Assembly: GCF_001864935.2 (NCBI RefSeq)
Contig: NZ_CP126267.1
Coordinates: forward strand, 2,852,001-2,916,000
Direction of reading: 5' to 3'
DNA: 64,000 bases
From: Curtobacterium sp. MCBA15_012
GTDB lineage: Bacteria > Actinomycetota > Actinomycetes > Actinomycetales > Microbacteriaceae
Below the pieces are notes generated by a model. That model ran no database searches. It saw only the letters and a program-made list of their open reading frames with translations, and was not told the origin of the DNA. Shown in pieces: positions 41,747 to 64,000 of this stretch (positions are counted from its first letter, which is position 1; each line of letters opens with the position of its first letter). Position numbers and translations under genes: made by a program.

Positions 41747-42727
41747 TCACCGTGCGGTGGCCGCGCGCAGGAGCGCGTCGACGAGGGCGACCTGGTCGAG
41801 TCCGACGGCGGCGAACACGAGCGGCACCTGCGACCGTTCGGTGAAGCCCGGCGTGGTGTTCACCTCGTTGAGCACGACCCCGTCGTCGGTCACGAAGAAG
41901 TCGAACCGGGCCACCCCGGCGCACCCGAGCGCGTCGTACAGCGCCACGGCCGCCCCCGTCACCGCCGCCTGCTCGGCGGTCGACAGGCGCGCGGGGACGC
42001 GGAAGTCGGCCGTCCCGTCGTACTTCTGCTCCCGGTCGAACACCTGGTCCGCGGCGACCACGACCTCGAGCGGCGCCCCGGTGCGGAGCGTCCCGGTCGC
42101 GTCCCGGAACAGGGCGACGTCGACCTCGCGGCCGGAGACGAACGACTCGACGAGCACCGCGTCGCCCGCCGCCCGTGCGTGCCGGACGGCTGCGGCGACC
42201 CCGGCGGACCGCCGCACGACCGTGACGCCGTTGCTCGACCCGGCCGAGGTGGGCTTCACGACCCACGGCGGTCCGGGCAGCGCCCGCACGGCGACGTCGA
42301 CCTCGCGGTCGTCGGCCGTCCGGCGCACGAGCACACCCGGCGCGGTCGCGATGCCCAGTGCCTCGGCCACGAGCTTCGTCACCCACTTGTCCGCGGCGAG
42401 CGCCCCCGCCCGGACCGGCGAACCGACGACCGGCACGCCGATCATGTCGAGCAGCCCGGCGACCGCGCCGTCCTCGCCGTGGTCGCCGTGCAGGAGCGGG
42501 AAGGCGGCGTCGCAGGTGGTGATCGCGGCGACCGCGGCGGCGGCGGACAGGGGCGTCCCGTCCGCCGCGTGCCAGGAACCGTCGCGCCCGACCGTGAGCG
42601 CGACGGTCGCGGTGCCGCCGGCGCGGAGTGCCCGCTCGGCGGCGGCCGCCGACGCCAGGGAGACGTCGTGTTCGTCGTTCGCGCCGCCGCCGATGACGGC
42701 GACGCGGAGGTGGGAGTGGTCAGGCAC
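41747..42727 (-). CDS. ddl: D-alanine--D-alanine (or D-Ala--D-Ser) ligase
   Basis: This 326-residue ATP-grasp ligase has VIGGGANDEHDVSLASA (about 10-26) and the FPLLHGDHGEDGAVAGLL motif (about 77-94). WVVKPTSAGSSNGV (about 152-165) is the ATP lysine loop, REQKYDGTADFRVPARL (about 223-239) is the omega loop, and VLNEVNTTPGF (about 291-301) holds the Mg ligands. The KY pair in the omega loop excludes the D-lactate-type (VanA/B, which has His there) and fits D-Ala or D-Ser as second substrate. GTG 42727 has GGAGGG and overlaps the racemase end by eight bases. It is last in the peptidase-racemase-ligase operon. Confidence 0.87.
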   Translation of the reverse strand: MPDHSHLRVAVIGGGANDEHDVSLASAAAAERALRAGGTATVALTVGRDGSWHAADGTPLSAAAAVAAITTCDAAFPLLHGDHGEDGAVAGLLDMIGVPVVGSPVRAGALAADKWVTKLVAEALGIATAPGVLVRRTADDREVDVAVRALPGPPWVVKPTSAGSSNGVTVVRRSAGVAAAVRHARAAGDAVLVESFVSGREVDVALFRDATGTLRTGAPLEVVVAADQVFDREQKYDGTADFRVPARLSTAEQAAVTGAAVALYDALGCAGVARFDFFVTDDGVVLNEVNTTPGFTERSQVPLVFAAVGLDQVALVDALLRAATAR

Positions 42728-43994
42728 GGTGGCCCTCCTGGTGGTGGATCGGGGAGCGGACGGACGGCGGGCGCCCGGACGGCGAGTGCTCGGACGGCAC
42801 GGGGGCAGCGTCGTCTCCGCGGGGGTGTGCCGCGGAGTCGGCGTCGGCGCGGGTGGTGGTGCGGTGCACCCGGGCGACGCGCGTGCCGACCCGGGTGACG
42901 AGTTCGTGCGGGATCGTGTCGGCCCAGGCCGCCCACTCCGCCACGGTCGGCACGGCGTCCCGGCCGACGGCACCGGTACCGGCACCCGCGCCGCTCGCCC
43001 GGGGCCCGAACACCGTGACGCGCTCGCCGGGCAGCAGCAGGTCGTCGCCCGTGTCGACGACGACGCTGTCCATCGAGAAGCGGCCGACGAGCGGGCGTCG
43101 CCGTCCCCGGACCCACACCACCGCGCGGCCCGAGGCGGCGCGGGGCAGCCCGTCGGCGTACCCGAGCGGCAGCAGCGCGGTGTTCGTGGGCCGGTCGGTC
43201 ACGTGGTCGCCGCCGTACCCGATCCGGGTCCCGGTCGGCACCGCCCGCGCGGACACCACGGTCGTCGTCAGGGAGAGCGTGTCGCGCAGGGCGGTCGTCG
43301 TGCCCGAGGGGTCGATCCCGAACAGTCCCGCGCCGACCCGGTGCAGGTCGAACCCGTCGGCGGCTCCGGTGACCGTCGCCGCGGTCGCCGCCAGGTGGCG
43401 CACGAGCGGGCCGAGCCCCCGTCGACGGGCGCTCCGGACGGCGTTCCGGAAGAGCAGCACCTCGCGGGTGTCCCGCCCGTCCCCGGGTCGGTCGGCCGAG
43501 GACATGTGCCCCATCACCCCGACGACACGCAGCGCCCCCGTCCCCTGCAGCTCCCGCGCGAGGACGCACAGCGCGTCCCACGCCGACGGCGGACAGCCCT
43601 CCCGTCCCATCCCGACGTCGACGTGCAGGTGGACGGCGGCGCGACGTCCGGTCCGGCGGGCGGCTCGCCCCACGGCGACGAGCGTCGCCGGGTCGGCGAC
43701 GGCGAGCGCGACGTCGGCACGGAGTGCCGACGCGAAGTCGGCGTCCGGCGGGTTGAGCCAGCTGAGCACGGGCGCGCGGACGCCCCCGGCGCGGACCGCG
43801 AGTGCCTCGTCGACGCTCGTCACGCCGACGGAGCCGGCCCCCGCCTCCAGGACGGACCGCGCGACCGCGCCGTGCCCGAAGCCGTCGGCCTTGAGCACGG
43901 CCATCAGGCGTCCGCCCGTCAGGGCGGCGAAGTGGGCTGTGTTCGCCCGCACCGCGTCGTCGTGGACGAGCAGTTCGGAGACCGGCGCGGTCAC
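42720..43994 (-). CDS. alr: Alanine racemase (PLP-dependent)
   Basis: This 424-residue fold-type III PLP racemase has catalytic Lys in AVLKADGFGHGA (about 32-43), the DVGMGREG strand, and HRVGAGLFGIDP. The second catalytic Tyr is in RIGYGGDHVT, and FSMDSVVVDTG follows. It interconverts L- and D-alanine, or possibly serine as in VanT-type racemases; no membrane domain is present. The C-terminus has a 45-residue low-complexity tail not found in typical Alr. GTG 43994 overlaps the peptidase stop as GTGA. Its place between a D,D-peptidase and a D-Ala ligase suggests a role in peptidoglycan precursor remodelling. Confidence 0.9.
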   Translation of the reverse strand: MTAPVSELLVHDDAVRANTAHFAALTGGRLMAVLKADGFGHGAVARSVLEAGAGSVGVTSVDEALAVRAGGVRAPVLSWLNPPDADFASALRADVALAVADPATLVAVGRAARRTGRRAAVHLHVDVGMGREGCPPSAWDALCVLARELQGTGALRVVGVMGHMSSADRPGDGRDTREVLLFRNAVRSARRRGLGPLVRHLAATAATVTGAADGFDLHRVGAGLFGIDPSGTTTALRDTLSLTTTVVSARAVPTGTRIGYGGDHVTDRPTNTALLPLGYADGLPRAASGRAVVWVRGRRRPLVGRFSMDSVVVDTGDDLLLPGERVTVFGPRASGAGAGTGAVGRDAVPTVAEWAAWADTIPHELVTRVGTRVARVHRTTTRADADSAAHPRGDDAAPVPSEHSPSGRPPSVRSPIHHQEGHRA

Positions 43995-44644
43995 CGCTGC
44001 ATCCGCGGGTCGGCCGTCGGGTCCGCGTAGAGGCGGGGGCAGCCGGCCTCGGGCGCCTCGGGCCGGAGCTCGAAGTGCCACGCCTCGTTGTCGTAGACCT
44101 GGCAGAGCCCGTACCCGGCGCCGTGGTCCTGCAACCACTCGGCGGCGTCCCAGTCGCCGATGTCGATCGCCTCGCCGCGGACGTGCAACGACGTCTGCGG
44201 GGTCGAGACCCATCGCGCGGCCTCGTCGCGGGAGCCGTACTCGGCCACCGCGTCGTCGAGCAGGCGTTCCTGCAGCGCGGCGGACCGCCAGCCGCTGTTC
44301 ACCACGAAGCGGACGCCGTCCCCCTCGGCGTCGCGGGCGGCACGGCGGACGGCCTCGAGCAGGTCCGGGTCGAGCTTCGTCACGGCGGGCAGGTCGTCGT
44401 CGAACACCGAGGCGCCGGAGGGCGCCTCACCGCCCGCGGGTCCGGTCGCGCCCTCCGTGCCGGCGGCACCGGCGCCGACGGAGGCGGCTCCCGGCCAGGA
44501 CGGTCCGCCCGGGGCGGCGACGGCGAGCGCTCCCGCGACCACCGCGGCAGCCAGGACCAGCACGAGGACGACGACCAGGGGCAGCGCGCGGGACCGACGC
44601 GGTCGGTGACGGACGGGGACCGGGGTGTGCAGGGAGTGGAGCAT
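43991..44644 (-). CDS. M15 D,D-carboxypeptidase (VanY/VanXY-like), membrane anchored
   Basis: This 217-residue protein has a basic N-terminus, one membrane segment (about 21-45), and a Gly/Ala-rich linker. An M15B peptidase domain then carries SGWRSAALQ, the zinc motif SLHVRGEAIDIG (SxHxxGxAxD), and NEAWHFELR (ExxWH, catalytic Glu and third zinc ligand). It would remove the terminal D-residue from peptidoglycan peptides outside the cell. ATG 44644 precedes the anchor. It is divergent from a two-component system across an inverted repeat and leads the racemase-ligase operon. Confidence 0.87.
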   Translation of the reverse strand: MLHSLHTPVPVRHRPRRSRALPLVVVLVLVLAAAVVAGALAVAAPGGPSWPGAASVGAGAAGTEGATGPAGGEAPSGASVFDDDLPAVTKLDPDLLEAVRRAARDAEGDGVRFVVNSGWRSAALQERLLDDAVAEYGSRDEAARWVSTPQTSLHVRGEAIDIGDWDAAEWLQDHGAGYGLCQVYDNEAWHFELRPEAPEAGCPRLYADPTADPRMQR

Positions 44645-44676
44645 GTCGACCAGTGCAACGGGCCGGACGTCGCCGG

Positions 44677-44700
44677 AGCGTACGCGTTTCCGCATACGCT
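44677..44700. promoter_or_regulatory. Inverted repeat in the peptidase/response-regulator promoter region
   Basis: AGCGTACGCG (44677-44686) and CGCATACGCT (44691-44700) are complements except for one base, separated by TTTC. Each arm contains a TACGCT hexamer in outward orientation that could serve as -10. A good candidate site for the response regulator. Confidence 0.45.
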
Positions 44701-44719
44701 CACGACACGTCCCGCCGCC

Positions 44720-44725
44720 TAGCAT
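44720..44725 (+). promoter_or_regulatory. -10 hexamer TAGCAT, response regulator
   Basis: TAGCAT is followed by seven bases and the GTG at 44733. Confidence 0.5.
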
Positions 44726-44732
44726 CGGGGTC

Positions 44733-45463
44733 GTGCGTGTACTGATCCTCGAGGACGAACCCCTGCTGGCCGGGGCGGTGCGGGACGGCCTGCGGCTCGA
44801 GGCGATCGCCGCGGACGTCGCGGCCGACGGGGACGCCGCGCTCGAGCTCCTCGCGGTGAACCGCTACGACGTCGCCGTGCTCGACCGGGACGTCCCGGGG
44901 CCGTCCGGCGACGAGGTGGCCGAGCACGTCGTCGCGACCGGGTCCGGCACGCCGATCCTCATGCTCACCGCCGCGGACCGGCTCGACGACAAGGCGTCCG
45001 GGTTCGCCGCGGGTGCCGACGACTACCTGACGAAGCCGTTCGAGCTGCGGGAGCTCGTGCTGCGGATCCGCGCGCTCGACCGGCGTCGTCCGGAGCGTCG
45101 GCCGCCCGTGCTCGAGGTCGCCGGGGTCCGGCTCGACCCGTTCCGCCGCGAGGTCTTCCGGGGCGGCCACCACGTCGCGCTGACCCGCAAGCAGTTCGCC
45201 GTCCTCGAGGTCCTGGTGCAGGCCGGGGGCGGCGTGGTCAGCGCCGAGCAACTGCTCGAACGAGCCTGGGACGAGCACGCCGACCCGTTCACGAACGCCG
45301 TGCGCATCACCGTCTCGGCGCTCCGCAAGCGGCTCGGGGAGCCCTGGGCGATCGTGACCGTGCCCGGCGTCGGCTACCGGATGGACGTGCCCACGGCCGC
45401 GGACACGGCGGTCGACCGGGCTGCGGGCGTCGACGCGGGTCGTGCTGCGGACGGTCCCCCGCG

Positions 45464-45467
<4 letters not shown>
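44733..45467 (+). CDS. OmpR-family response regulator (VanR-like context)
   Basis: This 244-residue regulator has a receiver domain with LILEDEPLL (acidic pocket, 4-12), phospho-acceptor Asp in VAVLDRDVPG (about 51), the Thr of LMLTAAD, and Lys in DYLTKPF (about 101). A winged-helix domain of the PhoB/OmpR type follows (LTRKQFAVLEVLV, TNAVRITVSALRKRLG, TVPGVGYRM). It starts leaderless and overlaps the histidine kinase by GTGA. It is divergent from the peptidase-racemase-ligase operon, which is its probable target. Confidence 0.9.
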
Positions 45468-46663
<1,196 letters not shown>

Positions 46664-50673: not shown

Positions 50674-51486
50674 ATGCCCGCGACGCACGTGAAGACCTTC
50701 ACCGACCCGGACGAGGCCACCGCCGAGGCCCTCGGACTCGAGTGGCTCGCCGAGGCCGAGGACGCCGGCGGCACCCGGATCGCCCGTGTGCTCGCCCACC
50801 CGGAGCCGACGGTCCTGCACCTCGAGCGCATCACCGACGGCGTCCCCGACCGCGGCCAGGCGGAACGCTTCGGCCGGTCCCTGGCGCACACCCACGCCGC
50901 GGGTGCGACGCACTGGGGCGCCCCCGCACCGGGCTTCCCGTCCGGACGCGGGATGCGCGTCGGGCGGTCCCGGACACCGTTCGTCCCCGCCGCCGAGGCG
51001 CCCGCGAGCTGGGGCGAGTTCTTCGCCGAGTACCGCATCCGTGACTTCGTCCGCCGCATCGTCGACCGTGGCGGGTTCGACGGTGCCGAGGCGGCGGTGT
51101 TCGACCGGGTCGCCGACCGGGTCGCGGACGGGACGCTCGGCTCCCCGCAGCCCGCGCTCGTCGGCGACGGACCGGCCCGCCTGCACGGCGACCTCTGGGC
51201 GGGCAACGTGCTCTGGCCCACCGACCGGAGCGAGCCGACCGGCGCGGTGCTCATCGACGCGACCCCGCACGGCGGCCACGCCGAGACCGACCTGGCCCTG
51301 CTGGCGCTGTTCGGACTGCCGCGTCTCGAGACGGTCCTGGCCGGCTACGACGCCGAGTCGCGGTTGGCCGACGGCTGGCAGGAACGGGTCGAGCTGCACC
51401 AGCTGGCGCCGCTGCTGCTGCACGTGTTCCTGTTCGGCGGCTCCTACGCCGACGACGCCCTGCGCGCCGCCCGCCGCTACGCCTGA
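50674..51486 (+). CDS. Fructosamine kinase family protein
   Basis: This 270-residue protein-kinase-like-fold enzyme has GQAERFGRSLAHTHAAGATHWG (cited as about 66-87), the catalytic block RLHGDLWAGNVLW (about 168-180, HGDxxxxN) and the metal loop LIDATPHGGHAETDLALL (about 191-208). Bacterial members phosphorylate ketoamines such as fructosamines or ribulosamines, allowing deglycation of proteins or metabolites. The length is slightly below the usual 280-300. The stop codon is the beginning of a 45-bp tandem array. Confidence 0.88.
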   Translation: MPATHVKTFTDPDEATAEALGLEWLAEAEDAGGTRIARVLAHPEPTVLHLERITDGVPDRGQAERFGRSLAHTHAAGATHWGAPAPGFPSGRGMRVGRSRTPFVPAAEAPASWGEFFAEYRIRDFVRRIVDRGGFDGAEAAVFDRVADRVADGTLGSPQPALVGDGPARLHGDLWAGNVLWPTDRSEPTGAVLIDATPHGGHAETDLALLALFGLPRLETVLAGYDAESRLADGWQERVELHQLAPLLLHVFLFGGSYADDALRAARRYA

Positions 51487-51615
51487 CCCAGTCGCAGGCC
51501 GGTTCCAGCCCGCCGTCCGGACTCCGCCTGACCCGGTCGCAGGCCGGTTCCGGCCCGCCGTCCAGACCCCGCCTGACCCGGTCGCCGGTCGGCTCCGGCC
51601 CGCCGTCCGGACCCC
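51481..51615. repeat. 45-bp tandem repeat starting at the fructosamine kinase stop codon
   Basis: Three units start at 51481, 51526 and 51571 (GCCTGACCCGGTCGCAGGCC...CCGCCGTCCGGACCCC). The first includes the gene's stop TGA (51484-51486). Units differ by two to four bases. Confidence 0.88.
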
Positions 51616-51737
51616 GCGCACGTCCGGCGGCCGGCGAGGCCCGAGGTCGGACCGCCGGTCCCGCTCCCCCGCTGACGCAACCGGTGCACGACCCCCGGGG
51701 AACGGGCACCGGGATCGTCAGCAGCTCCCCCACGGCT

Positions 51738-51779
51738 CGGTGCCCGGCCCGGCGTGGGGCCCGCTCGGGCCGGGCACCG
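51738..51779 (+). terminator. 14-bp hairpin upstream of the GOGAT-like promoter
   Basis: CGGTGCCCGGCCCG (51738-51751) pairs exactly with 51766-51779 across a 14-base loop. It probably ends fructosamine kinase transcription. Confidence 0.55.
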
Positions 51780-51854
51780 GGCGTCGACCGGCGACCGCGG
51801 CGCACCGCGACGCGCCCGCCGGAGCCGACCCGCGCCTCCCGTCCGGTCGGTCTG

Positions 51855-51884
51855 TTGCGTGCGCGGTATACCAACCCGTAGCAT
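51855..51884 (+). promoter_or_regulatory. Promoter of the GOGAT-like/diflavin operon
   Basis: TTGCGT (51855-51860) and TAGCAT (51879-51884) are 18 bp apart. Transcription would start near 51892, leaving a leader of about 105 bases to GTG 51999, unlike the leaderless genes around it. Confidence 0.5.
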
Positions 51885-51998
51885 CGGCTCACCCCACCCC
51901 ACCGGGCCCGGCCGCCACCAGACGGTCTGCCCACGGCGAGCGCTCCACCGATGCAGCCTGGCCGACCGCTGCCGGCACTCGTTGCACTGGATCCGCTC

Positions 51999-54900
51999 GT
52001 GAACCCCTCCCCCTTCGGCCTGTACGACCCTGCTCGCGAGTCGAGCGACTGCGGCGTCGGCTTCATCACCCGTCTCGACGGCACCCCGAGCCACGACGTC
52101 CTGGTGAAGGGCGACGAGGCGCTCTGCTCGATCCCGCACCGCGGCGGCAAGTCCGCCGAGGGCGTGGGCGACGGGGCGGGTGTCAGCATCGACCTGTCCG
52201 TCGAGTTCTTCAGCGCGATCACCGGGCAGGCCCTGCGCGCCGGGCACTTCGGCGTCGCGAACTGCTTCGTGCCGAGCGACCCCGACGAGCGTGCCGACGC
52301 CGAACGGCTCGTGACCGCGGAGCTCGACCGCCAGGGCTTCGAGCTGCTCCTCGTGCGCGACGTCCCGGTCGACCACTCCGTCGCCCGTCCCGAGGCCGAG
52401 CGGTACCAGCTGCCGATCGTGCAGTGGGTGTTCCGCGCCCCGGAGGACTGGGCCCGCGCCGACGTCGACGCGGCCGCGAACCGAGCGCTGCTCGCGATCG
52501 AGGCGGTGTCCTACGCCCGAGCCGCCGAGACCCGCGCCCCGCACGCCGCCCTGTACCCGCTGTCGCTCAGCGCACGCACGCAGGTGCTCAAGGGGCGCCT
52601 GAACTCGGGCGAGGTGATCGGGTACTTCACCGACCTGCGCGACCCGCGGCACTCGGTCCGGACGCTGTACTTCCACGCGCGCTTCTCGACGAACACCGAG
52701 CCGCACCCGACGATGGCCCAGCCATTCCGACTGATGGCGCACAACGGCGAGCTGAACACCGACCGCAAGAACCGCCTGTCCGACGAGGCCTCGGCCCGGG
52801 CCCGCACGCGCAGCATCGTGCGTCCGCCCGGGCAGTCCGACTCGAGCCGGCTCGACCAGACCCTGCAGAGCCGGGTGTTCGAGGACGGCCTGGACATCGT
52901 CGAGGCTGTCGTGACCCTGATGCCGCCGGCGTGGGAGAACGACCGCACGCTGAGCCCGGCGGTGCGGGACATGCTCGAGTACCACTCGCTGTACGAGGAG
53001 AAGAACGACGGCCCGGCCGCCGTGATCTTCAGCGACGGCGACGTCGTCGGCGCCCGCCTCGACCGGCTCGGCCTCCGCCCGCTGCGCACGGTGCAGACGG
53101 ACGAGTACCTCATCGTGGCGTCGGAGAGCGGCCAGGTGTCGTTCGACGCCGACACCGTCGTGCACCGCGGCCGCATCGAGGCCGGCGGGATGCTCGTCGT
53201 GGACCACCGCACCGGCGCGGTCCTGCGCACCGACGAGGCCCTCGAGCTGCTCGCCACCCGGAAGCCGTACGGCGCGCTGCTGGACGCCGCCCGGGTCGAC
53301 CTCGACGCGCTGCCCGCGCCCGACTACGACCGCGGCGCGAGCACGCTCGGCTACGACGGCGACCTGTCGCTCGCGGGGCGCTACGTGGCGTACTCGCTGA
53401 ACCAGGAGAGCTTCCGGTTCATGCTCGACCCGATGCTCGCGACCGGATCGGAGCGCATCTCGGCGATGGGCTACGGCACCGCGATCAACGCGCTGAGCGA
53501 CACCGAGGGCGGCATGGCGAAGTACTTCTCGCAGCGCTTCGCCCAGGTGACGAACCCGCCGCTCGACTCGATCCGCGAGGCCGACGGCATGTCGATGCGG
53601 GTCGCCCTCGGTGCCAAGCTCGACGCGCACGCCAGCGCAGGAGCCCCGGTCACCGACGGCGCCGGCACCGCCCCCACCCGCCAGATCGTCGTGCAGTCCC
53701 CCGTGCTCGGCCACCTCGACATGGTCCGCCTGCGCGACCAGACCGTCGTCCCGCTCGAACGCTTCGACATGCTCTACGTCCCCGTGCTCGGCGACGAGCA
53801 GGCCAACGCCGCGGCCGTCCGCTCGGCGGTCGACGCGCTGTGCGACGCCGTCGAGGCGTTCGCCCGCACCTCGGGCGGCATCGCCGTCCTGACCGACCGC
53901 GCGGTGTCGTCGACGCACGCCCCGCTGCCCGTGATCCTGGCCGTCGCCGCGGTCAACCAGCGGCTCATCGAGACCGGCCTGCGCCTGCGGCTGTCGATCG
54001 TCGCCGAGTCCGGACAGCTGCCGTCGTCGCACCACGTGGCGACCGCGCTCGGCTTCGGCGCCTCGGCCGTGTACAGCCTGTCGGCACGACTGCGTGCGGA
54101 GGAGCAGTACCCCGCCGAGGCCGCCCCCGCCGGCGAGGTCACCGCGACCGACCTGGCGCTGCAGCGGTTCCGGAAGGCCGCCGAGAAGGCCCTCGCGAAG
54201 ACCATGGGCCGCGTCGGGCTGTGCACCGCGGAGAGCTACATCGGCGGCGCGTTCTTCGAGCCGAACTACCTCGACACCGGCGACGACCTGTTCGCGCGGG
54301 TGTTCCCGTACATGCAGGCACCGGTCGGCGGCGTCGGCTTCGCGCGCATCGCCCAGGCCGCGACGGACTGGCACGAGCGCGCACGATCGGTCGCATCGGC
54401 GGCCCAGGTCCCGCTCCTCGGGCTGTTCAAGGAGCGCTCGGACGGCGCGGGCCACTCGTTCGGCGTCGCGAGCGTCCGCGGCTTCGGCGGCATGACCGAG
54501 GAACGCCCGGCGTTCGAGCGCGCGGGCGACTCCGAGGCGCTGCGCCTGCTCACCCTCGGGCAGCTCGACGACGCCTTCGGCATCACCGACAGCGCGTACC
54601 GCCACACCGGGTACGACCGGCTGAGCGACGCCGAGGTCGACGCGCACCGGATCACCCCGGGCTACGTGTCGTTCCTGCAGACCACGCACGACGAGCGCTC
54701 GCGTCGCCCGGCCGCGCTCCGCGACGTGCTCGCGCTGCCCGCCGACGTCACCGGCATCGACACCGCCGAGGACTTCGCGCGCGAACTCGGCCGCTTCTCG
54801 ACGAGCGGCAACGCGAGCATCACGGTGCGCGGGCTGTCCGGCTCGCGTCCGGCGTCGTCCGACGGTCTGCCGGGAGGCGCGGCCCGCTTCCGCCTGGAGC

Positions 54901-57584
54901 TCACCTCGACGGGACCCACGGGTGCCGTGCGCCACACGGCCCTCGCGGACGGGCTCGCGCTGCTGCACCCCGGCCAGGTCGCCGTCGACACGGTCGACGA
55001 CGACCAGGTGACGCTGCGCGCCACGGGCGGCGCGGCCGCCCTGCTCGCCCTGCTGCAGAGCGCCCCCGCGAGCGTCGACCTCGACGAGGTCCAGCCCGCC
55101 CACGAGGTCACCCGCACGCTGGCGTCCGGCGCGATGAGCCACGGCGCCCTCGTCGCCGCGGCGCACGAGGCGGTCGCGCACGGCACGAACATGGTCGGCG
55201 GCATGTCGAACTCCGGCGAGGGCGGCGAGCACCACACCCGCTACGGCACCATCCGCGGCTCCCGGATCAAGCAGTTCGCCTCCGGCCGGTTCGGCATCTG
55301 GGCCGGGTACCTCGCCGACCCGATGCTCGAGGAGCTCGAGATCAAGATCGGCCAGGGTGCGAAGCCGGGCGAGGGCGGCCAGCTGCCCGCGCCGAAGGTC
55401 ACGGTCGACATCGCCGCGGCGCGCGGTGGCACCCCGGGCGTCGAGCTCATCTCGCCGCCGCCGCACCACGACACGTACTCGATCGAGGACCTCGCGCAGC
55501 TCATCCACGACTGCAAGGCCGCCCGCGTGCGCGTCGTCGTGAAGCTCGTGTCCTCCGAGGGCATCGGCACGATCGCGGTCGGCGTCGCGAAGGCCGGCGC
55601 CGACGTCATCAACGTCGCGGGCAACACCGGCGGCACGGGTGCCGCGGCCGTCACGAGCCTGAAGTACGCGGGGCGCTCCGCCGAGATCGGCGTGGCCGAG
55701 GTGCACCAGGCCCTCGTGGCGAACGGCCTGCGGCAGAAGGTCACGCTCCGCTGCTCGGGCGCCCACCAGACCGGCTCCGACGTCGTCACGAGCGCCCTGC
55801 TCGGCGGGGACTCGTTCGAGTTCGGTACGACGGCGCTCATGATGCTCGGCTGCGTGATGGCGAAGAACTGCAACGTGAAGTGTCCGGCGGGCCTGACCAC
55901 GAACCCGGAGGCGTTCGAGGGCGACCCGCGCGCGCTCGCGCAGTACCTGCTGAACATCGCGCACGACGTCCGGCAGATCCTCGCCCGCCTCGGCCTGCGG
56001 TCGCTCCGCGAGGCCCGGGGGCGCACCGACCTGCTCCAGCTCCTCGACCACCCGGCGAGCGTCGGGCGGCTCGACGTCCGCGGCCTGCTCGCCCGGGTGC
56101 CCGAGAAGGTCGTCACCGACCCGGAGTACCTCGAGAAGGACTACCGCACCGACGACGCCCTCATCGAGCAGGTCCGCGCCGCGCTGGTCGAGGGGCACGA
56201 GGCCGCGCTGACGATCGACGGCGTCCTGCTCGGCAACGCGGACAAGTCCGTCGGCGGCCAGCTCGGCATCGACCTCGAGCGCGTCCTGAACCACGAGCTG
56301 CGGGGCGTCGACCTGTCGGCGCACCCCGCGGTCACGACGGACGACCGTGGTCGCCGCCGGCTCGTCGACGGCGCCCTCACGGTGCGCACCTCCGGCTCGG
56401 CCGGGCAGTCGTACGGCGTCTTCACGAACGACGGCACGACCCTCGAGCACACCGGCACCGCGAACGACGGCGTCGGCAAGAGCCAGTCCGGCGGCCGCAT
56501 CGTCGTGCGTGCGCCCGGCGGCGGCAGCGCCGAGCGGGGCGGCAACGTCCTCGTCGGCAACTTCGCGCTGTTCGGCGCGACCGGTGGCCGCACGTTCGTC
56601 GAGGGCGAGGCCGGCGACCGGTTCGCCGTCCGCAACTCCGGCGCGACCGCGGTCGTCGAGGGCCTCGGCGACTTCGGCTGCGAGTACATGACCGGCGGCG
56701 CGGTGTTCAACCTCGGCGGCTTCGGCAAGGGCCTGGGCAACGGCATGTCCGGCGGGTTCCTGTACCAGTACGACCCGACCGGCCGGGTGACCGAGCGGGC
56801 GAGCACCGACTCGCTCCTGGTGTTCCCCGTGACCGAGACCGCACGCGGGGCGTTCCACGAGGCGGCCGCCCGGCTGCTGCTCGAGTGGCACCTCGAGGCC
56901 ACCGGTTCGGCACGCGCCGAGCAGCTCCTGGCCGACTGGGACACCACCCGCACGCACGTGTACGTCGGCATGCCCCGGGCGCTCCTGCTCAGCCAGGACG
57001 CGGACGAGATCCTCGCGGCGGCGACCCGCACGGAGCTCCTCGACGAACTCGCGACCTCGGTCGCGACGGACAAGCTCCGTGCGTTCAAGACCGACTACCG
57101 CGACCGGCGCACGGTGCTCGACGGCCGCGCCCCCGCGCTCGGCGACCAGGGCGGCGACACGTTCTCGCTGCTGTCGTCGTACACGGTGCTCGCGGTCGCC
57201 CAGGACGTGGCGCAGGAGCGGGTGCCCGGCGCCGCCCCGGCCGACCCGCGGGTCACCGAGGCCGTCCGGAACCTCGTCCTGACCGAGGACTTCCAGGTGA
57301 AGCAGCGCGTGGTCAAGTACCTGCGCGCGACCTTCGAGTCGTTCGCCGACGACGAGCTCGCCACGCTCATCGCCGTGAAGCGGCTCGACGACGCCAAGCG
57401 CGCGCTGACGCAGCGGAACAACCGCAGCTCGGACGCGCCCGGGACCACGGGGTGGATCATGCACCAGAACGCCAAGAACGCCGGACGGGTCCGCGCGGCC
57501 CGGTTCGACGAGCTGCTCGCGACCGCGGCCCTCGACGACATCGCGCGCCGGGCACCGCAGGCACCGGTGGAGGTGGGCGCGTGA
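51999..57584 (+). CDS. Divergent glutamate synthase (GOGAT) large-subunit-like protein
   Basis: This 1861-residue protein has the GltB domain order. A class II amidotransferase domain has nucleophile Cys18 (SSDCGVGFI), with MAHNGELNT and KNDGPAAVIF. A central domain follows, then an FMN barrel with GQGAKPGEGGQLP near 1116 and ISPPPHHDTYSIEDLAQLI. A GXGXG domain lies at about 1500-1590. Departures from standard GltB are HRGGKSAEG after the N-terminus, VAGNTGGTGA instead of SGHDGGTGA, and SGAHQTGSD instead of DGGLKTGRD. The iron-sulfur cysteines are C1285-x5-C1291-x3-C1295 rather than x5/x4. An extra C-terminal helical region of roughly 190 residues is present. It probably moves amide nitrogen from glutamine to a 2-oxo acid, but the substrate may differ. 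Its stop overlaps the start of a diflavin reductase. Confidence 0.8.
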   Translation: MNPSPFGLYDPARESSDCGVGFITRLDGTPSHDVLVKGDEALCSIPHRGGKSAEGVGDGAGVSIDLSVEFFSAITGQALRAGHFGVANCFVPSDPDERADAERLVTAELDRQGFELLLVRDVPVDHSVARPEAERYQLPIVQWVFRAPEDWARADVDAAANRALLAIEAVSYARAAETRAPHAALYPLSLSARTQVLKGRLNSGEVIGYFTDLRDPRHSVRTLYFHARFSTNTEPHPTMAQPFRLMAHNGELNTDRKNRLSDEASARARTRSIVRPPGQSDSSRLDQTLQSRVFEDGLDIVEAVVTLMPPAWENDRTLSPAVRDMLEYHSLYEEKNDGPAAVIFSDGDVVGARLDRLGLRPLRTVQTDEYLIVASESGQVSFDADTVVHRGRIEAGGMLVVDHRTGAVLRTDEALELLATRKPYGALLDAARVDLDALPAPDYDRGASTLGYDGDLSLAGRYVAYSLNQESFRFMLDPMLATGSERISAMGYGTAINALSDTEGGMAKYFSQRFAQVTNPPLDSIREADGMSMRVALGAKLDAHASAGAPVTDGAGTAPTRQIVVQSPVLGHLDMVRLRDQTVVPLERFDMLYVPVLGDEQANAAAVRSAVDALCDAVEAFARTSGGIAVLTDRAVSSTHAPLPVILAVAAVNQRLIETGLRLRLSIVAESGQLPSSHHVATALGFGASAVYSLSARLRAEEQYPAEAAPAGEVTATDLALQRFRKAAEKALAKTMGRVGLCTAESYIGGAFFEPNYLDTGDDLFARVFPYMQAPVGGVGFARIAQAATDWHERARSVASAAQVPLLGLFKERSDGAGHSFGVASVRGFGGMTEERPAFERAGDSEALRLLTLGQLDDAFGITDSAYRHTGYDRLSDAEVDAHRITPGYVSFLQTTHDERSRRPAALRDVLALPADVTGIDTAEDFARELGRFSTSGNASITVRGLSGSRPASSDGLPGGAARFRLELTSTGPTGAVRHTALADGLALLHPGQVAVDTVDDDQVTLRATGGAAALLALLQSAPASVDLDEVQPAHEVTRTLASGAMSHGALVAAAHEAVAHGTNMVGGMSNSGEGGEHHTRYGTIRGSRIKQFASGRFGIWAGYLADPMLEELEIKIGQGAKPGEGGQLPAPKVTVDIAAARGGTPGVELISPPPHHDTYSIEDLAQLIHDCKAARVRVVVKLVSSEGIGTIAVGVAKAGADVINVAGNTGGTGAAAVTSLKYAGRSAEIGVAEVHQALVANGLRQKVTLRCSGAHQTGSDVVTSALLGGDSFEFGTTALMMLGCVMAKNCNVKCPAGLTTNPEAFEGDPRALAQYLLNIAHDVRQILARLGLRSLREARGRTDLLQLLDHPASVGRLDVRGLLARVPEKVVTDPEYLEKDYRTDDALIEQVRAALVEGHEAALTIDGVLLGNADKSVGGQLGIDLERVLNHELRGVDLSAHPAVTTDDRGRRRLVDGALTVRTSGSAGQSYGVFTNDGTTLEHTGTANDGVGKSQSGGRIVVRAPGGGSAERGGNVLVGNFALFGATGGRTFVEGEAGDRFAVRNSGATAVVEGLGDFGCEYMTGGAVFNLGGFGKGLGNGMSGGFLYQYDPTGRVTERASTDSLLVFPVTETARGAFHEAAARLLLEWHLEATGSARAEQLLADWDTTRTHVYVGMPRALLLSQDADEILAAATRTELLDELATSVATDKLRAFKTDYRDRRTVLDGRAPALGDQGGDTFSLLSSYTVLAVAQDVAQERVPGAAPADPRVTEAVRNLVLTEDFQVKQRVVKYLRATFESFADDELATLIAVKRLDDAKRALTQRNNRSSDAPGTTGWIMHQNAKNAGRVRAARFDELLATAALDDIARRAPQAPVEVGA

Positions 57585-59374
57585 GCACGCTCCGCCCGAC
57601 CGGGTCCCTGATCCCCGTCGACGCCCCGTTCTCGGCCGCCCAGGAGTCCTGGCTCGCGGGCTTCATCGCGGGGGTCGCCGCCGCGGGACGCCGGTCGACC
57701 GCGCCCGCACCGACGACCACGGTGGACGTGCTCTTCGGCACGCAGACCGGCAACGCCGAGGTGCTCGCCGACCAGCTCGTCGCCGGTGCCGTCGCCCGCG
57801 GGCTCGGCGGCCGGGCCACCGCGCTCGACGACGTCTCCCCCGAGCAGCTCGCCGACATGTCCCACGTGCTCGTCGTCACCTCGACGTACGGCGAGGGCGA
57901 GATGCCCGACAACGCCGGTCTGTTCTGGGAGGCGCTGCAGGCGAGCACCGTGCCCCGGCTCGAGGGGCTGCAGTACGCCGTGCTCGGGCTCGGCGACACG
58001 AGCTACGACGAGTTCTGCCAGGCCGGCAAGCTCCTCGACACCCGCCTCGAGCAGCTCGGCGCGACACGGATCCACGACCGGGTCGACTGCGACGTCGACT
58101 TCGAGGACCCGGCCGAGCTCTGGACGGCTGCCGTCCTCGACCGCGTCGCCGCCCAGGCGGGAGCCACGGGCGCCGCTGCGGGCGCGACCACCGGGGTCGG
58201 CGCGACCACGACCGCGACCGCAGCCGGCGGGGCGGGCGCGAGCCGCGCCTCCCGGCCGGGTGCGCAGTGGACCAAGCGCACCCCGTACCGTGCGCCCCTC
58301 GTCGTGAACCGCCTGCTCAGCGCACCGGGCAGCGCCAAGGAGATCAGGCACCTCGAGTTCGACCTCGGCGACTCGGGCATCGAGTACGCGGCCGGTGACG
58401 CCCTGGCCGTCGTCCCGCACAACGACCCGGCACTCGTCGACGAACTGCTCGACCACCTCGGCGCCGACGGCTCCGCGGACGTCGACGGCCGCACGCTCGC
58501 CGAGGTCCTGCGCGTCGACCGCGAGGTCAGGACCCCGTCGAAGGACCTGGTCGCCGACCTCGTGCAGCGCGCGCCGGCGTCCGAGCTCGCCGCGGTCGTG
58601 GCGCACGGCGACAAGCAGGAGCTGGACCGGTGGCTGTGGGGCCGCGACGTCCTCGACCTGCTCCGGGACGCGGGTCCCGCGGCGCCGACCCTCGAGGAAC
58701 TGCTGCCGAACCTGCGCGGACTGCAGGCGCGCCAGTACTCGATCTCGTCGAGCCCGCTCGCCCACCCGGGCCGGGTCCACCTGACCATCGCGAGCGTGCG
58801 GTACGGCGACGCCCACCGCACCCACCACGGCGTCGCCTCGACGTACCTGGCGGACCGCGTGCAGGCGGACGGCGAGGTCGGGGTGTACCTGCAGCCGAAC
58901 GCCGCGTTCGGGGTGCCCGCCGACGGCGACGCCCCGATGGTGATGATCGGTCCGGGCACCGGCATCGCGCCGTTCCGCGGGTTCCTGCACGAGCGTGCCG
59001 CATCCGGGGCGCGGGGTGCGAACTGGCTGTTCTTCGGCGACCAGCACCGCGCCACCGACTTCGTGTACGAGGACGAGCTCACCGACCTGCAGGAGCGCGG
59101 CGTGCTCGACCGCCTCGACGTCGCGTTCTCGCGCGACCAGGCCGAGAAGGTCTACGTGCAGACGCGCATGCGGGAGCAGGCGGCGGAGCTGTACCGCTGG
59201 CTGGAGGACGGTGCGTCCGTGTACGTGTGCGGCGACGCCTCGCGGATGGCGAAGGACGTCGAGCAGGCGCTGCTCGACGTGATCGCCGCCGGTCGGGGGC
59301 GCGGCGTGGACGACGCGCTCGCGTACCTGGCCGACCTGCGCCGCGCGAAGCGGTACGTGCGCGACGTGTACTGA
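57581..59374 (+). CDS. CysJ-type diflavin reductase coupled to the GOGAT-like gene
   Basis: This 597-residue NADPH-to-FMN electron carrier has a flavodoxin domain (LFGTQTGNAEVLA from about 50, TSTYGEGEMPDNA, LGLGDTSYDEFC) and an Ala/Gly/Thr-rich linker (about 195-230). The FAD-binding domain has RQYSISSSP (about 382-390) and GVASTYLADR. The NADPH domain has MIGPGTGIAPFRGFLHER (about 454-471) and VYVCGDASRMAKDVE, ending in the KRYVRDVY tail of sulfite reductase flavoproteins. No sulfite reductase hemoprotein gene is adjacent. GTG 57581 overlaps the GOGAT-like stop as GTGA, so it likely delivers electrons to that protein in place of a GltD subunit. This partnership is inferred from coupling. 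Confidence 0.88.
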   Translation: MSTLRPTGSLIPVDAPFSAAQESWLAGFIAGVAAAGRRSTAPAPTTTVDVLFGTQTGNAEVLADQLVAGAVARGLGGRATALDDVSPEQLADMSHVLVVTSTYGEGEMPDNAGLFWEALQASTVPRLEGLQYAVLGLGDTSYDEFCQAGKLLDTRLEQLGATRIHDRVDCDVDFEDPAELWTAAVLDRVAAQAGATGAAAGATTGVGATTTATAAGGAGASRASRPGAQWTKRTPYRAPLVVNRLLSAPGSAKEIRHLEFDLGDSGIEYAAGDALAVVPHNDPALVDELLDHLGADGSADVDGRTLAEVLRVDREVRTPSKDLVADLVQRAPASELAAVVAHGDKQELDRWLWGRDVLDLLRDAGPAAPTLEELLPNLRGLQARQYSISSSPLAHPGRVHLTIASVRYGDAHRTHHGVASTYLADRVQADGEVGVYLQPNAAFGVPADGDAPMVMIGPGTGIAPFRGFLHERAASGARGANWLFFGDQHRATDFVYEDELTDLQERGVLDRLDVAFSRDQAEKVYVQTRMREQAAELYRWLEDGASVYVCGDASRMAKDVEQALLDVIAAGRGRGVDDALAYLADLRRAKRYVRDVY

Positions 59375-62173: not shown

Positions 62174-63349
62174 TCAGTCCTGCGCGACCGCCTCGTAGTG
62201 GCGCGCGCCACCGCGGACGCCCGCGAAGCGGAACGGTCCGGCGGTCACGCGCGGACGCTCGACGTCCTCGCTCGTCGCCGCACCCGCGGCGTGCAGGGCG
62301 CGGTACTCGTCGACGGTCAGCCGCACGCGGGACCCGAGCACCTCCTGCACCCGGCCGACACGGCGGTGCTGCTGGTGGTCGGGCCGCACGATGCCGGTCA
62401 TCAGCTCGCCGACGCTGCCCGAGCCGTAGCTGAACATCGCGATCCGCTGCCCGGCGAGGTCGTCGTCCAGGTCGAGCAGCGCCGCGAGCCCGATCCAGAT
62501 CGACGCCGTGTACGTGTTGCCGGTCTGCTTGTTGTACGTGAAGCCGATCGCGAGCTCGGACTCGTCGAAGGGCTCACCGACGTGCTGCGTGAGCTTCCGG
62601 TGCGCCTTGATCGCCATCTTCGTGAACGGCTGGTGGTGCACGAACCGGGCGATGTCGCCGAAGGCCGGACCGCCCTGCGCGGCGAGGTCGTCCCACGCGC
62701 CGATGAAGGCGTCCACGTAGGCGCTGACCGACAGGCGGCCGTCGACGAGCGCGGTGGAGCGGTCGTTCGGCCGCCAGAAGTCGTCGACGTCCGCGGTGAA
62801 GACCCCGGCGGCCGGCTCGATCTCGATGAGGTCGGGGTCGGCCGACACCAGGATCGCGGCGGCGCCGGCACCCTGCGTCGGCTCCGCGGCGGTGTCGACG
62901 TCGTAGCGGGCGACGTCGGCGGCGATCACGAGCACGCGCTCGTGCGGTGCGCGCGCGACGATGCCGAGCGCGAGCTGCACCGCGGCGGTCCCGCCGTAGC
63001 AGGCCTGTTTGAGCTCGACGACGCGGACGCCCTTCGGCAGCCCGAGCAGGCCGTGCACGAAGACACCGGCCGCCTTCGACTGGTCGACGCCGGACTCGGT
63101 CGCGAACAGCACGGTGCGGATGCCCTCGACGCCGTGGCGGTCGATGACCTCCTTGGCCGCGGCCGCGCCCATCGTGACGATGTCCTCGTCCGGGGCGGGC
63201 ACGCTGAAGGCGTCCTGGCCGATGCCGACGTGGTACTTGGCCGGGTCGACGCCGAGGCGCTCCGCCAGGTCGTCGAGCTCGAGCACGTGGTGGCCCGTGG
63301 CGATCGCGATGTCGTGGATGCCGACGGACAGCGACTGCTGCGTGGTCAT
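62174..63349 (-). CDS. mvaS: Hydroxymethylglutaryl-CoA synthase
   Basis: This 391-residue thiolase-fold enzyme condenses acetyl-CoA with acetoacetyl-CoA to HMG-CoA, the first committed mevalonate step. Catalytic residues are visible: Glu85 (LFATESGVDQSKA), Cys117 (LKQACYGGTAA) and His238 (RFVHHQPFTKM); NTYTASIWIGL and FSYGSGS follow. The length matches bacterial MvaS. ATG 63349 has GGAGG at ideal spacing and overlaps the HMG-CoA reductase stop as ATGA, so the two pathway enzymes are translationally coupled. A 24-bp hairpin follows. Confidence 0.95.
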   Translation of the reverse strand: MTTQQSLSVGIHDIAIATGHHVLELDDLAERLGVDPAKYHVGIGQDAFSVPAPDEDIVTMGAAAAKEVIDRHGVEGIRTVLFATESGVDQSKAAGVFVHGLLGLPKGVRVVELKQACYGGTAAVQLALGIVARAPHERVLVIAADVARYDVDTAAEPTQGAGAAAILVSADPDLIEIEPAAGVFTADVDDFWRPNDRSTALVDGRLSVSAYVDAFIGAWDDLAAQGGPAFGDIARFVHHQPFTKMAIKAHRKLTQHVGEPFDESELAIGFTYNKQTGNTYTASIWIGLAALLDLDDDLAGQRIAMFSYGSGSVGELMTGIVRPDHQQHRRVGRVQEVLGSRVRLTVDEYRALHAAGAATSEDVERPRVTAGPFRFAGVRGGARHYEAVAQD

Positions 63350-64000
63350 GCTGCACCTCCTGCAGGTCGGGAGCCACGGCGTTCCATCGCGACGTGCGCG
63401 GCCATCAGCTCCCCGGGGTTCGTCTGGGCGGCGAGCAGGGACAGCTCACCGCAGAGCACCGTCGCGGCGCACATGGCGGCCAGACGACGGGCGTTGGCGC
63501 CGGGCTCGCGCTCCTCGCGGCAGCCGAGGCGCACGAGGGCGTCCTCGACGACCGGTAGGTCGCCGCCCTTGCCGTTGCCGACCGTGCCGACGATCAGGTG
63601 CGGCAGCGCGGTCGAGAAGTACAGGTCGTCGCCGCGCGCCTCGGCGAAGGTGATGCCCTGCGAGCCCTCGACGATGTTCGCGGCGTCCTGCCCGGTGGCC
63701 AGGTAGAAGCCGAGGAGCATGTTCGCGTAGTGCGCGTTCGCGGAGCGCAGGGCCCCGGCGATGGTCGAGCCGACGAGGTTCTTCGCGACGTTGAGCTCGG
63801 CGATGCGGGCGGCGGAAGACCGTAGCCGCTTCTCGACGACCTCACCCGGGATGACGATCTCGGCGATGGTGTTGCGCCCGCGGCCGCGGATGCCGTTCAC
63901 CGCGGTGGCCTTCTTGTCGGTGCAGAAGTTGCCCGAGACGCTGACGTACCGCAGGCCCGGCTCCCACGCGAGGATCGCGGGCAGGAGCGTGTCCGCCGCC
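63346..64000 (-). CDS. HMG-CoA reductase, class I, partial (C-terminal part)
   Basis: The last 218 codons lie in the window; the gene continues past 64000. SGNFCTDKKATAVN, GRGRNTIAEIVIP, GQDAANIVEGSQG, LPHLIVGTVGNGKGG and LCGELSLLAAQ match class I (eukaryote/streptomycete-type, NADPH) reductases. Class II (degradative) enzymes are less similar. The catalytic His is in MAAHVAMER near the end. It reduces HMG-CoA to mevalonate. It overlaps mvaS by four bases. The remaining mevalonate genes are expected upstream, beyond the window. Confidence 0.93.
   Translation of the reverse strand, partial: AADTLLPAILAWEPGLRYVSVSGNFCTDKKATAVNGIRGRGRNTIAEIVIPGEVVEKRLRSSAARIAELNVAKNLVGSTIAGALRSANAHYANMLLGFYLATGQDAANIVEGSQGITFAEARGDDLYFSTALPHLIVGTVGNGKGGDLPVVEDALVRLGCREEREPGANARRLAAMCAATVLCGELSLLAAQTNPGELMAAHVAMERRGSRPAGGAA

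Follow-up and report, generated by a model that had tools for sequence, protein, structure and literature searches.

Which protein delivers electrons to the divergent glutamate synthase of Curtobacterium sp. MCBA15_012? The window that we analyzed, a stretch of 64,000 nucleotides (positions 2,852,001 to 2,916,000 of NZ_CP126267.1), encodes a glutamate synthase-like large subunit, which we call GltB2, and a diflavin reductase similar to CysJ, the flavoprotein of NADPH sulfite reductase. Nitrogen enters biomass by two main routes, and glutamate synthase (GOGAT) is one of them. The known electron donors of this enzyme are GltD (an iron-sulfur flavoprotein) and ferredoxin, and there is a eukaryotic NADH form. 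We propose that GltB2 and the CysJ-like flavoprotein together make up a glutamate synthase that depends on NADPH and has the diflavin reductase in place of GltD (probability about 0.8). Our grounds are sequence-based: the dedicated pairing of the two genes, their fusion, their joint loss, the conserved catalytic motifs, the lack of any other recognizable partner in the same genome, and regulator-like boxes in relatives. From these we infer the electron route, the docking parts, the presence of a cluster, an iron-saving role, and NADPH as the donor.

The two genes are arranged as follows:

51999 to 57584, + strand: gltB2, divergent glutamate synthase large subunit, 1861 amino acids from GTG (1877 from the ATG at 51951), stop at 57584; from reading frames, domain matches and alignment
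57581 to 59374, + strand: CysJ-like diflavin reductase, 597 amino acids from a GTG start, with flavodoxin (50-173), flavin adenine dinucleotide (FAD; 232-422) and NADPH (455-561) domains; from domain matches
57581 to 57584, + strand: GTGA stop/start overlap of four bases; from reading frames

An earlier note on this DNA described a 1861-residue GOGAT-like protein overlapping a complete reductase, with sites for flavin mononucleotide (FMN), FAD and NADPH, by GTGA, and both frames are where it placed them. The listed start of gltB2 is the ATG at 51951. The GTG at 51999 is likelier to be the start, judging from related sequences, because the ATG sits in a leader that is conserved across Curtobacterium and a few Streptomyces, because relatives have GACG or GTTG where this ATG stands, and because one Streptomyces relative starts at the GTG position. 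Residue numbers below are those of the 1877-residue frame; subtracting 16 gives the numbering of the 1861-residue protein.

Domains and motifs of GltB2

All four GOGAT domains of Pfam (GATase_2, Glu_syn_central, Glu_synthase, and GXGXG) are found in GltB2 above their cut-offs:

52050 to 53273, + strand: class II glutamine amidotransferase domain, residues 34-441 (PF00310), with presumed nucleophile Cys34, invariant in 10 aligned rows
53382 to 54260, + strand: glutamate synthase central domain, residues 478-770 (PF04898)
54477 to 55070, + strand: GltB2-specific inserts ahead of the FMN domain, residues ~843-1040 (from alignment); an alpha/beta element with a predicted local distance difference test score (pLDDT) of ~85-90 in the model
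55041 to 55997, + strand: FMN / 2-oxoglutarate synthase domain, residues 1031-1349 (PF01645), with QGAKPGEGGQLP and SPPPHHD common to solved GOGATs
55851 to 55883, + strand: three-cysteine motif C1301-x5-C1307-x3-C1311, presumed to be a 3Fe-4S site that has lost one residue (from alignments)
56343 to 56834, + strand: GXGXG domain, residues 1465-1628 (PF01493)
57018 to 57581, + strand: GltB2-specific C-terminal extension, predicted to be all-helical, residues ~1690-1877 (from alignment and model)

We aligned GltB2 to eight relatives and to GltB1, the ordinary large subunit of the same genome. The N-terminal cysteine, both motifs of the synthase site, and the three cysteines are kept. The C-x5-C-x3-C spacing, to which the earlier note drew attention, is present in all 88 GltB2 rows that we compared, versus C-x5-C-x4-C in all 28 canonical actinobacterial rows. 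(Two patterns used as bait in our genome scan, MPPAWEN and CVMAKNC, hold the first two cysteines, so the invariance of those two across the 80 loci described below is partly built in; that of the third is not.) The loop from GEGGE to IKQ is 12 residues long in 88/88 GltB2 rows and 12-17 in canonical rows, with one not found.

GltB2 thus has the glutaminase, central, FMN synthase, and GXGXG domains, the active-site motifs, and the three-cysteine site in common with the large subunit of GltB/GltD (PDB 6s6s, 1ea0, 7mfm). It differs in the x3 rather than x4 cysteine spacing, in its inserts, in its C-terminal extension, in its score against the NCBIfam model for glutamate synthase (PRK11750; 1032 bits, below the cut-off of 1047), and in having a CysJ-like partner in place of GltD. 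Ferredoxin-dependent glutamate synthase (PDB 1llw/1ofd) has the same large-subunit architecture and no GltD, but GltB2 lacks the GEGGE-IKQ insertion of 1llw (the single ferredoxin enzyme in our alignment) and has a dedicated reductase.

The C-terminal extension (~190 residues) was predicted to be all-helical when modeled alone (pLDDT 80.4). Past its first ~45 residues, it gave no convincing match to Pfam, to PDB sequences, or to PDB folds, which is not proof of a new fold. AlphaFold modeled residues 772-1877 poorly (pLDDT 65.5); a Foldseek search with this model put glutamate synthases at the top, with TM-scores under 0.3. The second insert (~970-1030) is absent from members G288 and G298. The extension and the inserts are candidate docking parts for the reductase.

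GltB2 and the reductase occur together

A scan of GTDB species genomes gave at least 553 relatives of GltB2, and we kept the best 80 of the 553. In all 80 of these loci, the next gene downstream, on the same strand, is the reductase, which either overlaps gltB2 or is within ~200 bp of it (two of the loci end at a contig edge). Among the sources of these loci are Curtobacterium (17), Streptomyces (14), Microbacterium, Pseudoclavibacter, Rhodococcus, Nocardia, and Mycolicibacterium, as well as many Rhizobiales and Rhodobacterales, Lampropedia, SAR92, and Pantoea. The earlier note would have given up its proposal if homologues of the large subunit commonly lay apart from any diflavin reductase; among the best 80, none does.

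Other collections gave similar results. Among plasmids, nine records matched GltB2 at 60-80% identity, each over 98% of its length, compared to 187 records at under 60% (34-36% among the matches listed). We inspected five of the nine, and the reductase was the next gene in each (from the annotation in four and from reading frames in one). Comparing the plasmids with the reductase gave these same nine records at 50% identity or more. We also examined 396 genomes sampled evenly from the window's phylum: only three had a GltB2-level match, including the window's own genome, and the other two matches adjoin a reductase. Of 66 Curtobacterium genomes, 52 have GltB2 (as a broken or split gene in a few cases) and 52 have a relative of the reductase; the same 14 genomes lack both.

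In some proteins, the two parts are fused. Of 28 long proteins with a relative of the reductase, eight also carry the four GOGAT domains. Seven of these are 2268-2482 amino acids long, and two come from Lentisphaera profundi and L. marina. The eighth (3384 amino acids) is labelled Artemia franciscana and is probably a contaminant or an assembly fusion. The GOGAT part of the fusions is 43-51% identical to GltB2, extends into the C-terminal extension, and has the C-x5-C-x3-C motif; the reductase part follows it and is 39-48% identical to our reductase. Five of the eight show the N-terminal cysteine motif; the other three start later in the alignment. (We checked the order of the Pfam domains in three fusions.) Among the remaining 20 long proteins, 15 have a molybdopterin oxidoreductase domain of the nitrate reductase type, which is a precedent for CysJ modules with other acceptors.

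We also built trees of both proteins, using a quick method with only Shimodaira-Hasegawa-like approximate likelihood ratio test (SH-aLRT) supports. In the GltB2 tree, one branch separates 88 GltB2 rows from 28 canonical rows, all of them actinobacterial (support 100). Between this tree and that of the reductase, distances are correlated (r = 0.91 over 87 rows, as the truncated locus L045 was left out of the reductase tree). With one row per genus label, r = 0.83 (47 rows), and none of 2000 permutations was as high. Both trees have the same unexpected groupings: Streptomyces with Curtobacterium, Pantoea with Lampropedia, and SAR92 with Rhodobacterales. Because of the fusions, the identical presence and absence in 66 Curtobacterium genomes, and the congruent trees, we conclude that the two genes have a dedicated functional bond. 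Together with the adjacency in the 80 loci, this supports the earlier note's idea of a separate class of enzymes in which a GltB-like protein has a diflavin partner.

Is the reductase an ordinary CysJ?

Not all of our results favor the proposed glutamate synthase. Those that weigh against it concern the classification of the reductase, the canonical GltB of many genomes with GltB2, the evidence from Pantoea, and the iron link in Curtobacterium and in proteobacteria; we give each with the alternative that it would favor.

The reductase might be an ordinary CysJ, or a donor to nitrate reductase, that lies beside gltB2 by chance and serves another acceptor. It resembles CysJ (PDB 6efv) over its full length, with ~40% identity, the same flavodoxin-FAD-NADPH order, and the N-terminal W-L-x-G-F motif. 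Its Flavodoxin_1, FAD_binding_1, and NAD_binding_1 domains are all above the Pfam cut-offs, and it passes the model for sulfite reductase subunit alpha (NF004859; 477 bits versus a cut-off of 432), which counts against our proposal. Also, 31 of 35 genomes with GltB2 encode a sulfite/nitrite reductase (SIR/NIR) domain somewhere. On the other hand, its score against the cysJ model TIGR01931 (586 bits) is below the equivalog cut-off of 668, and chance adjacency does not fit with 80 adjacent pairs out of 80, the fusions, and the perfect co-loss with GltB2.

The genome of strain MCBA15_012 (3.58 Mb, one contig) offers the reductase no obvious alternative acceptor. We found no NIR_SIR domain (PF01077) in it, using a search that was positive in 11 of 14 control genomes, so it has no recognizable CysI or NirB. 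It also has no second protein with FAD_binding_1 (PF00667). Given both results, there is no recognizable sulfite or nitrite reductase for the reductase to serve, and we rejected partners in this genome other than GltB2. The earlier note had seen no CysI gene adjacent to the reductase and had raised the possibility of an orphan cysI that needs it; no such gene was found beside it or elsewhere in this genome. That note also asked if a standard gltBD is present. It is: an ordinary GltB1 (1535 amino acids) is followed by GltD (485 amino acids, 671 bits), and this gltD sits beside gltB1, not gltB2. The SIR/NIR domain was found in none of the three Curtobacterium genomes that we examined (G000, G396, and G397).

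In the reductase tree, the partners of GltB2 are separate from CysJ and from the reductase modules fused to nitrate reductase. (Of the nine outgroup reductases, L125, L132, and L133 have no annotation, and the one from E. coli is assumed to be CysJ.) The nitrate reductase fusions, which are annotated as "bifunctional nitrate reductase/sulfite reductase flavoprotein subunit alpha," are ~45% identical to our reductase and have a CysJ-type module on a non-sulfite acceptor, but that acceptor is a molybdenum nitrate reductase rather than a GOGAT. Two reductases beside aldehyde dehydrogenase genes do fall within the clade of GltB2 partners, on long branches, which is another point against our proposal. 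Overall, we consider it very unlikely that the reductase is an ordinary CysJ or a nitrate reductase donor.

The two reductases on long branches (L128:2917-4620 and L129:2917-4623) are CysJ-like and are encoded on plasmids of Paracoccus and Arthrobacter, with genes for aldehyde dehydrogenase and glutamine synthetase nearby. There is no CysI in the stretches shown, and these reductases could possibly have another unusual partner.

Glutamate synthesis in Pantoea

If GltB2 and the CysJ-like reductase form a glutamate synthase, why do most genomes with GltB2 have another one? Canonical GltB is also present in 25 of the 34 distinct genomes with GltB2, so its role in those bacteria may be special. 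GltB2 could instead be a related amidotransferase that makes a different product in species with a gltBD of their own. GltB2 does branch apart as a clade, and it has inserts and a C-terminal domain that are specific to it. However, its catalytic and substrate motifs are unchanged. The other nine genomes have no full-length canonical GltB. Four of them are Pantoea genomes, including one titled as a complete genome. The remaining five were assembled from metagenomes, and one of these has GltD together with fragments of a canonical gltB.

In the four Pantoea genomes, GltB2 is the only full-length GOGAT that we found (one of them encodes an additional short Glu_synthase protein of 446 amino acids). 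A GltB2-like frame, judged by its score and length, is present in four of 119 genomes sampled from the Pantoea family, and three of those four lack canonical GltB. (We assigned GltB2 to G493, G542, and G516 from score and frame length.) A search for GltD (TIGR01317) found none in the four Pantoea genomes or in two further genomes with a GltB2-like gene and no canonical GltB, where the best scores were 20-44 bits; two relatives with canonical GltB scored ~355 bits.

According to PMC12364357, Pantoea ananatis AJ13355 has no close homologue of the E. coli GOGAT. The product of its putative gltB shares 64% identity with a GOGAT large subunit of Agrobacterium, and a gltB knockout is stated, from earlier work, to be a glutamate auxotroph (PMC12364357). 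The words gltD, small subunit, flavoprotein, and sulfite do not appear in the main text of that article. The Pantoea GltB2 proteins that we found are 67.7-69.6% identical to five GltB2 proteins from Rhizobiaceae or Rhizobiales, three of them from Agrobacterium, so the gltB of P. ananatis is very probably GltB2. The identity of this gene comes from comparing sequences and the knockout is reported at second hand, and both weaken the case for our proposal. Still, GltB2 very likely makes glutamate in a cell that lacks GltD, and it seems unlikely that its product is something else.

A possible link to iron

We scanned ~425 bp upstream of the loci for DtxR/IdeR-like boxes, with a consensus sequence and a threshold of 14 matches out of 19. 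Such boxes were found at 30 of 36 actinobacterial loci from outside of Curtobacterium, compared to 5 of 1499 control windows taken from elsewhere in these loci. A box with 15-17 matches was also found at three further loci (G288, G298, and Tsukamurella). Also, in 29 of the 80 loci, from 16 genus labels, the gene that comes right after the reductase is HemS/ChuX-like (for example, L110:14316-15371, L102:14518-15510, and L108:14215-15204). We scanned five of these 29: L110, L102, and L069 pass the Pfam cut-off for HemS, L108 is below it, and L113 has no match. The rest were assigned by their similarity to L110 or L108. Among the plasmid neighbors, that of L040 passes the HemS cut-off and that of L044 does not. 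Siderophore uptake genes are near the Ketogulonicigenium locus.

GltD carries two 4Fe-4S clusters, so replacing it with an iron-free reductase would save most of the iron. The DtxR/IdeR-like boxes and the HemS-like gene, neither of which figured in the earlier note, hint at an iron-saving isoenzyme. A related economy is known from Bacillus subtilis, whose iron-sparing response lowers the iron-containing glutamate synthase, as a passage in PMC9938188 reports.

The pair might instead be a GOGAT that is distinguished by something other than iron saving, such as a role in oxygen, nitrosative, or redox-supply stress, with the boxes as a lineage-specific addition. This would fit with the loci that have no box, which also count against our own account. 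In the Curtobacterium group, no box was found at any of the 16 loci with full upstream sequence (the other two of the 18 were left out, as their upstream sequence is incomplete), and the best site in our window has 12 of 19 matches. Elsewhere in the same genome, there are three DtxR-like boxes with one or two mismatches. Curtobacterium loci also lack a HemS-like neighbor. In proteobacteria, one of 26 loci has a DtxR-like box (background 6/1071). At a 99th-percentile threshold, these 26 loci gave one Fur site, three Irr sites (background 5.2%), and no MUR or IscR-like sites, so there is no clear signal, and a k-mer comparison of the upstream regions of Rhizobiales and Rhodobacterales gave nothing convincing. 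An iron-saving role for Curtobacterium itself is unsupported. The boxes at most of the other actinobacterial loci and at the three further ones, the HemS-like third gene, and the loss of iron-sulfur clusters along with GltD all argue for iron, and we view a different distinguishing role as possible, though less likely.

The HemS-like gene raises another alternative, which is that the reductase chiefly feeds a HemS-like heme protein and that GltB2 is merely co-transcribed. The frequent adjacency of this gene is consistent with that, but no HemS-like neighbor was detected in 51 of the 80 loci, including all of those from Curtobacterium and Pantoea, and in eight proteins the reductase is fused to GltB2. 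(Short fusions to HemS would not have been detectable in that search.) We give this alternative almost no credence. At a Rhodococcus locus, the place of the HemS-like gene is taken by a separate flavodoxin gene (L087:14156-14722, 188 amino acids), which overlaps the end of the reductase.

Proposed mechanism and significance

In the glutamate synthase that we propose, the N-terminal domain of GltB2 would hydrolyze glutamine, and the ammonia would be channeled to the FMN site, where 2-iminoglutarate would be reduced. The electrons would pass from NADPH to the FAD and then the FMN of the reductase, probably on to the three-cysteine iron-sulfur site, and from there to the FMN of GltB2. The reductase would likely dock via the helical C-terminal extension and the inserts. 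In most actinobacteria other than Curtobacterium, a shortage of iron probably turns on expression of the pair, so that GltD would be swapped for an iron-free reductase.

More broadly, we think it rather likely, with slightly less confidence than for the enzyme itself, that the pair represents a third class of glutamate synthase holoenzyme in prokaryotes, dependent on neither GltD nor ferredoxin. It would be a laterally spread unit, sometimes a single chain of ~2480 residues, that serves as an iron-thrifty spare under the control of DtxR/IdeR in many actinobacteria and that has entirely displaced GltBD in Pantoea.

The pairing is found in many bacteria and seems to have been little noticed. Neither a GOGAT with a diflavin reductase nor an enzyme assay of such a pair was found in our searches of open-licence literature. 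If our proposal is correct, then a donor with only flavins is a new electron-input module for GOGAT, and glutamate synthesis in Pantoea without gltBD is explained. Some of the proteins annotated as "sulfite reductase subunit alpha" in genomes without a sulfite reductase would gain a function. It would also suggest a strategy of iron-sparing isoenzymes in nitrogen assimilation. The single-chain fusions are ready objects for structural and kinetic work.

Other features of the window

Upstream of gltB2 there is a conserved element:

51853 to 51975, + strand: promoter-like block (TGTTGC..GGTATACC..TAGCAT) and leader element, conserved in other Curtobacterium

The core of the leader, GCGAGCGCTCC, is present in 23 of 81 upstream stretches, including four Streptomyces loci and L060. 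A search of Rfam gave nothing above threshold, only a sub-threshold match to a miRNA. The conserved leader might reflect regulation by the leader or be a trace of lateral transfer.

Two very long open frames overlap gltB2, at 51477 to 57464 on the - strand (1995 codons) and at 50786 to 59374 on the + strand (2862 codons). They look like by-products of codon use at high G+C content rather than genes.

Farther upstream, genes for an alanine racemase, a VanY-type D-Ala-D-Ala carboxypeptidase, an OmpR-type response regulator, and a histidine kinase are grouped at 42720 to 46663, which looks like a peptidoglycan-related regulatory cluster. At the end of the window (62174 to 63999, - strand) are genes for 3-hydroxy-3-methylglutaryl-CoA (HMG-CoA) synthase and HMG-CoA reductase, which are perhaps part of a mevalonate pathway cluster.

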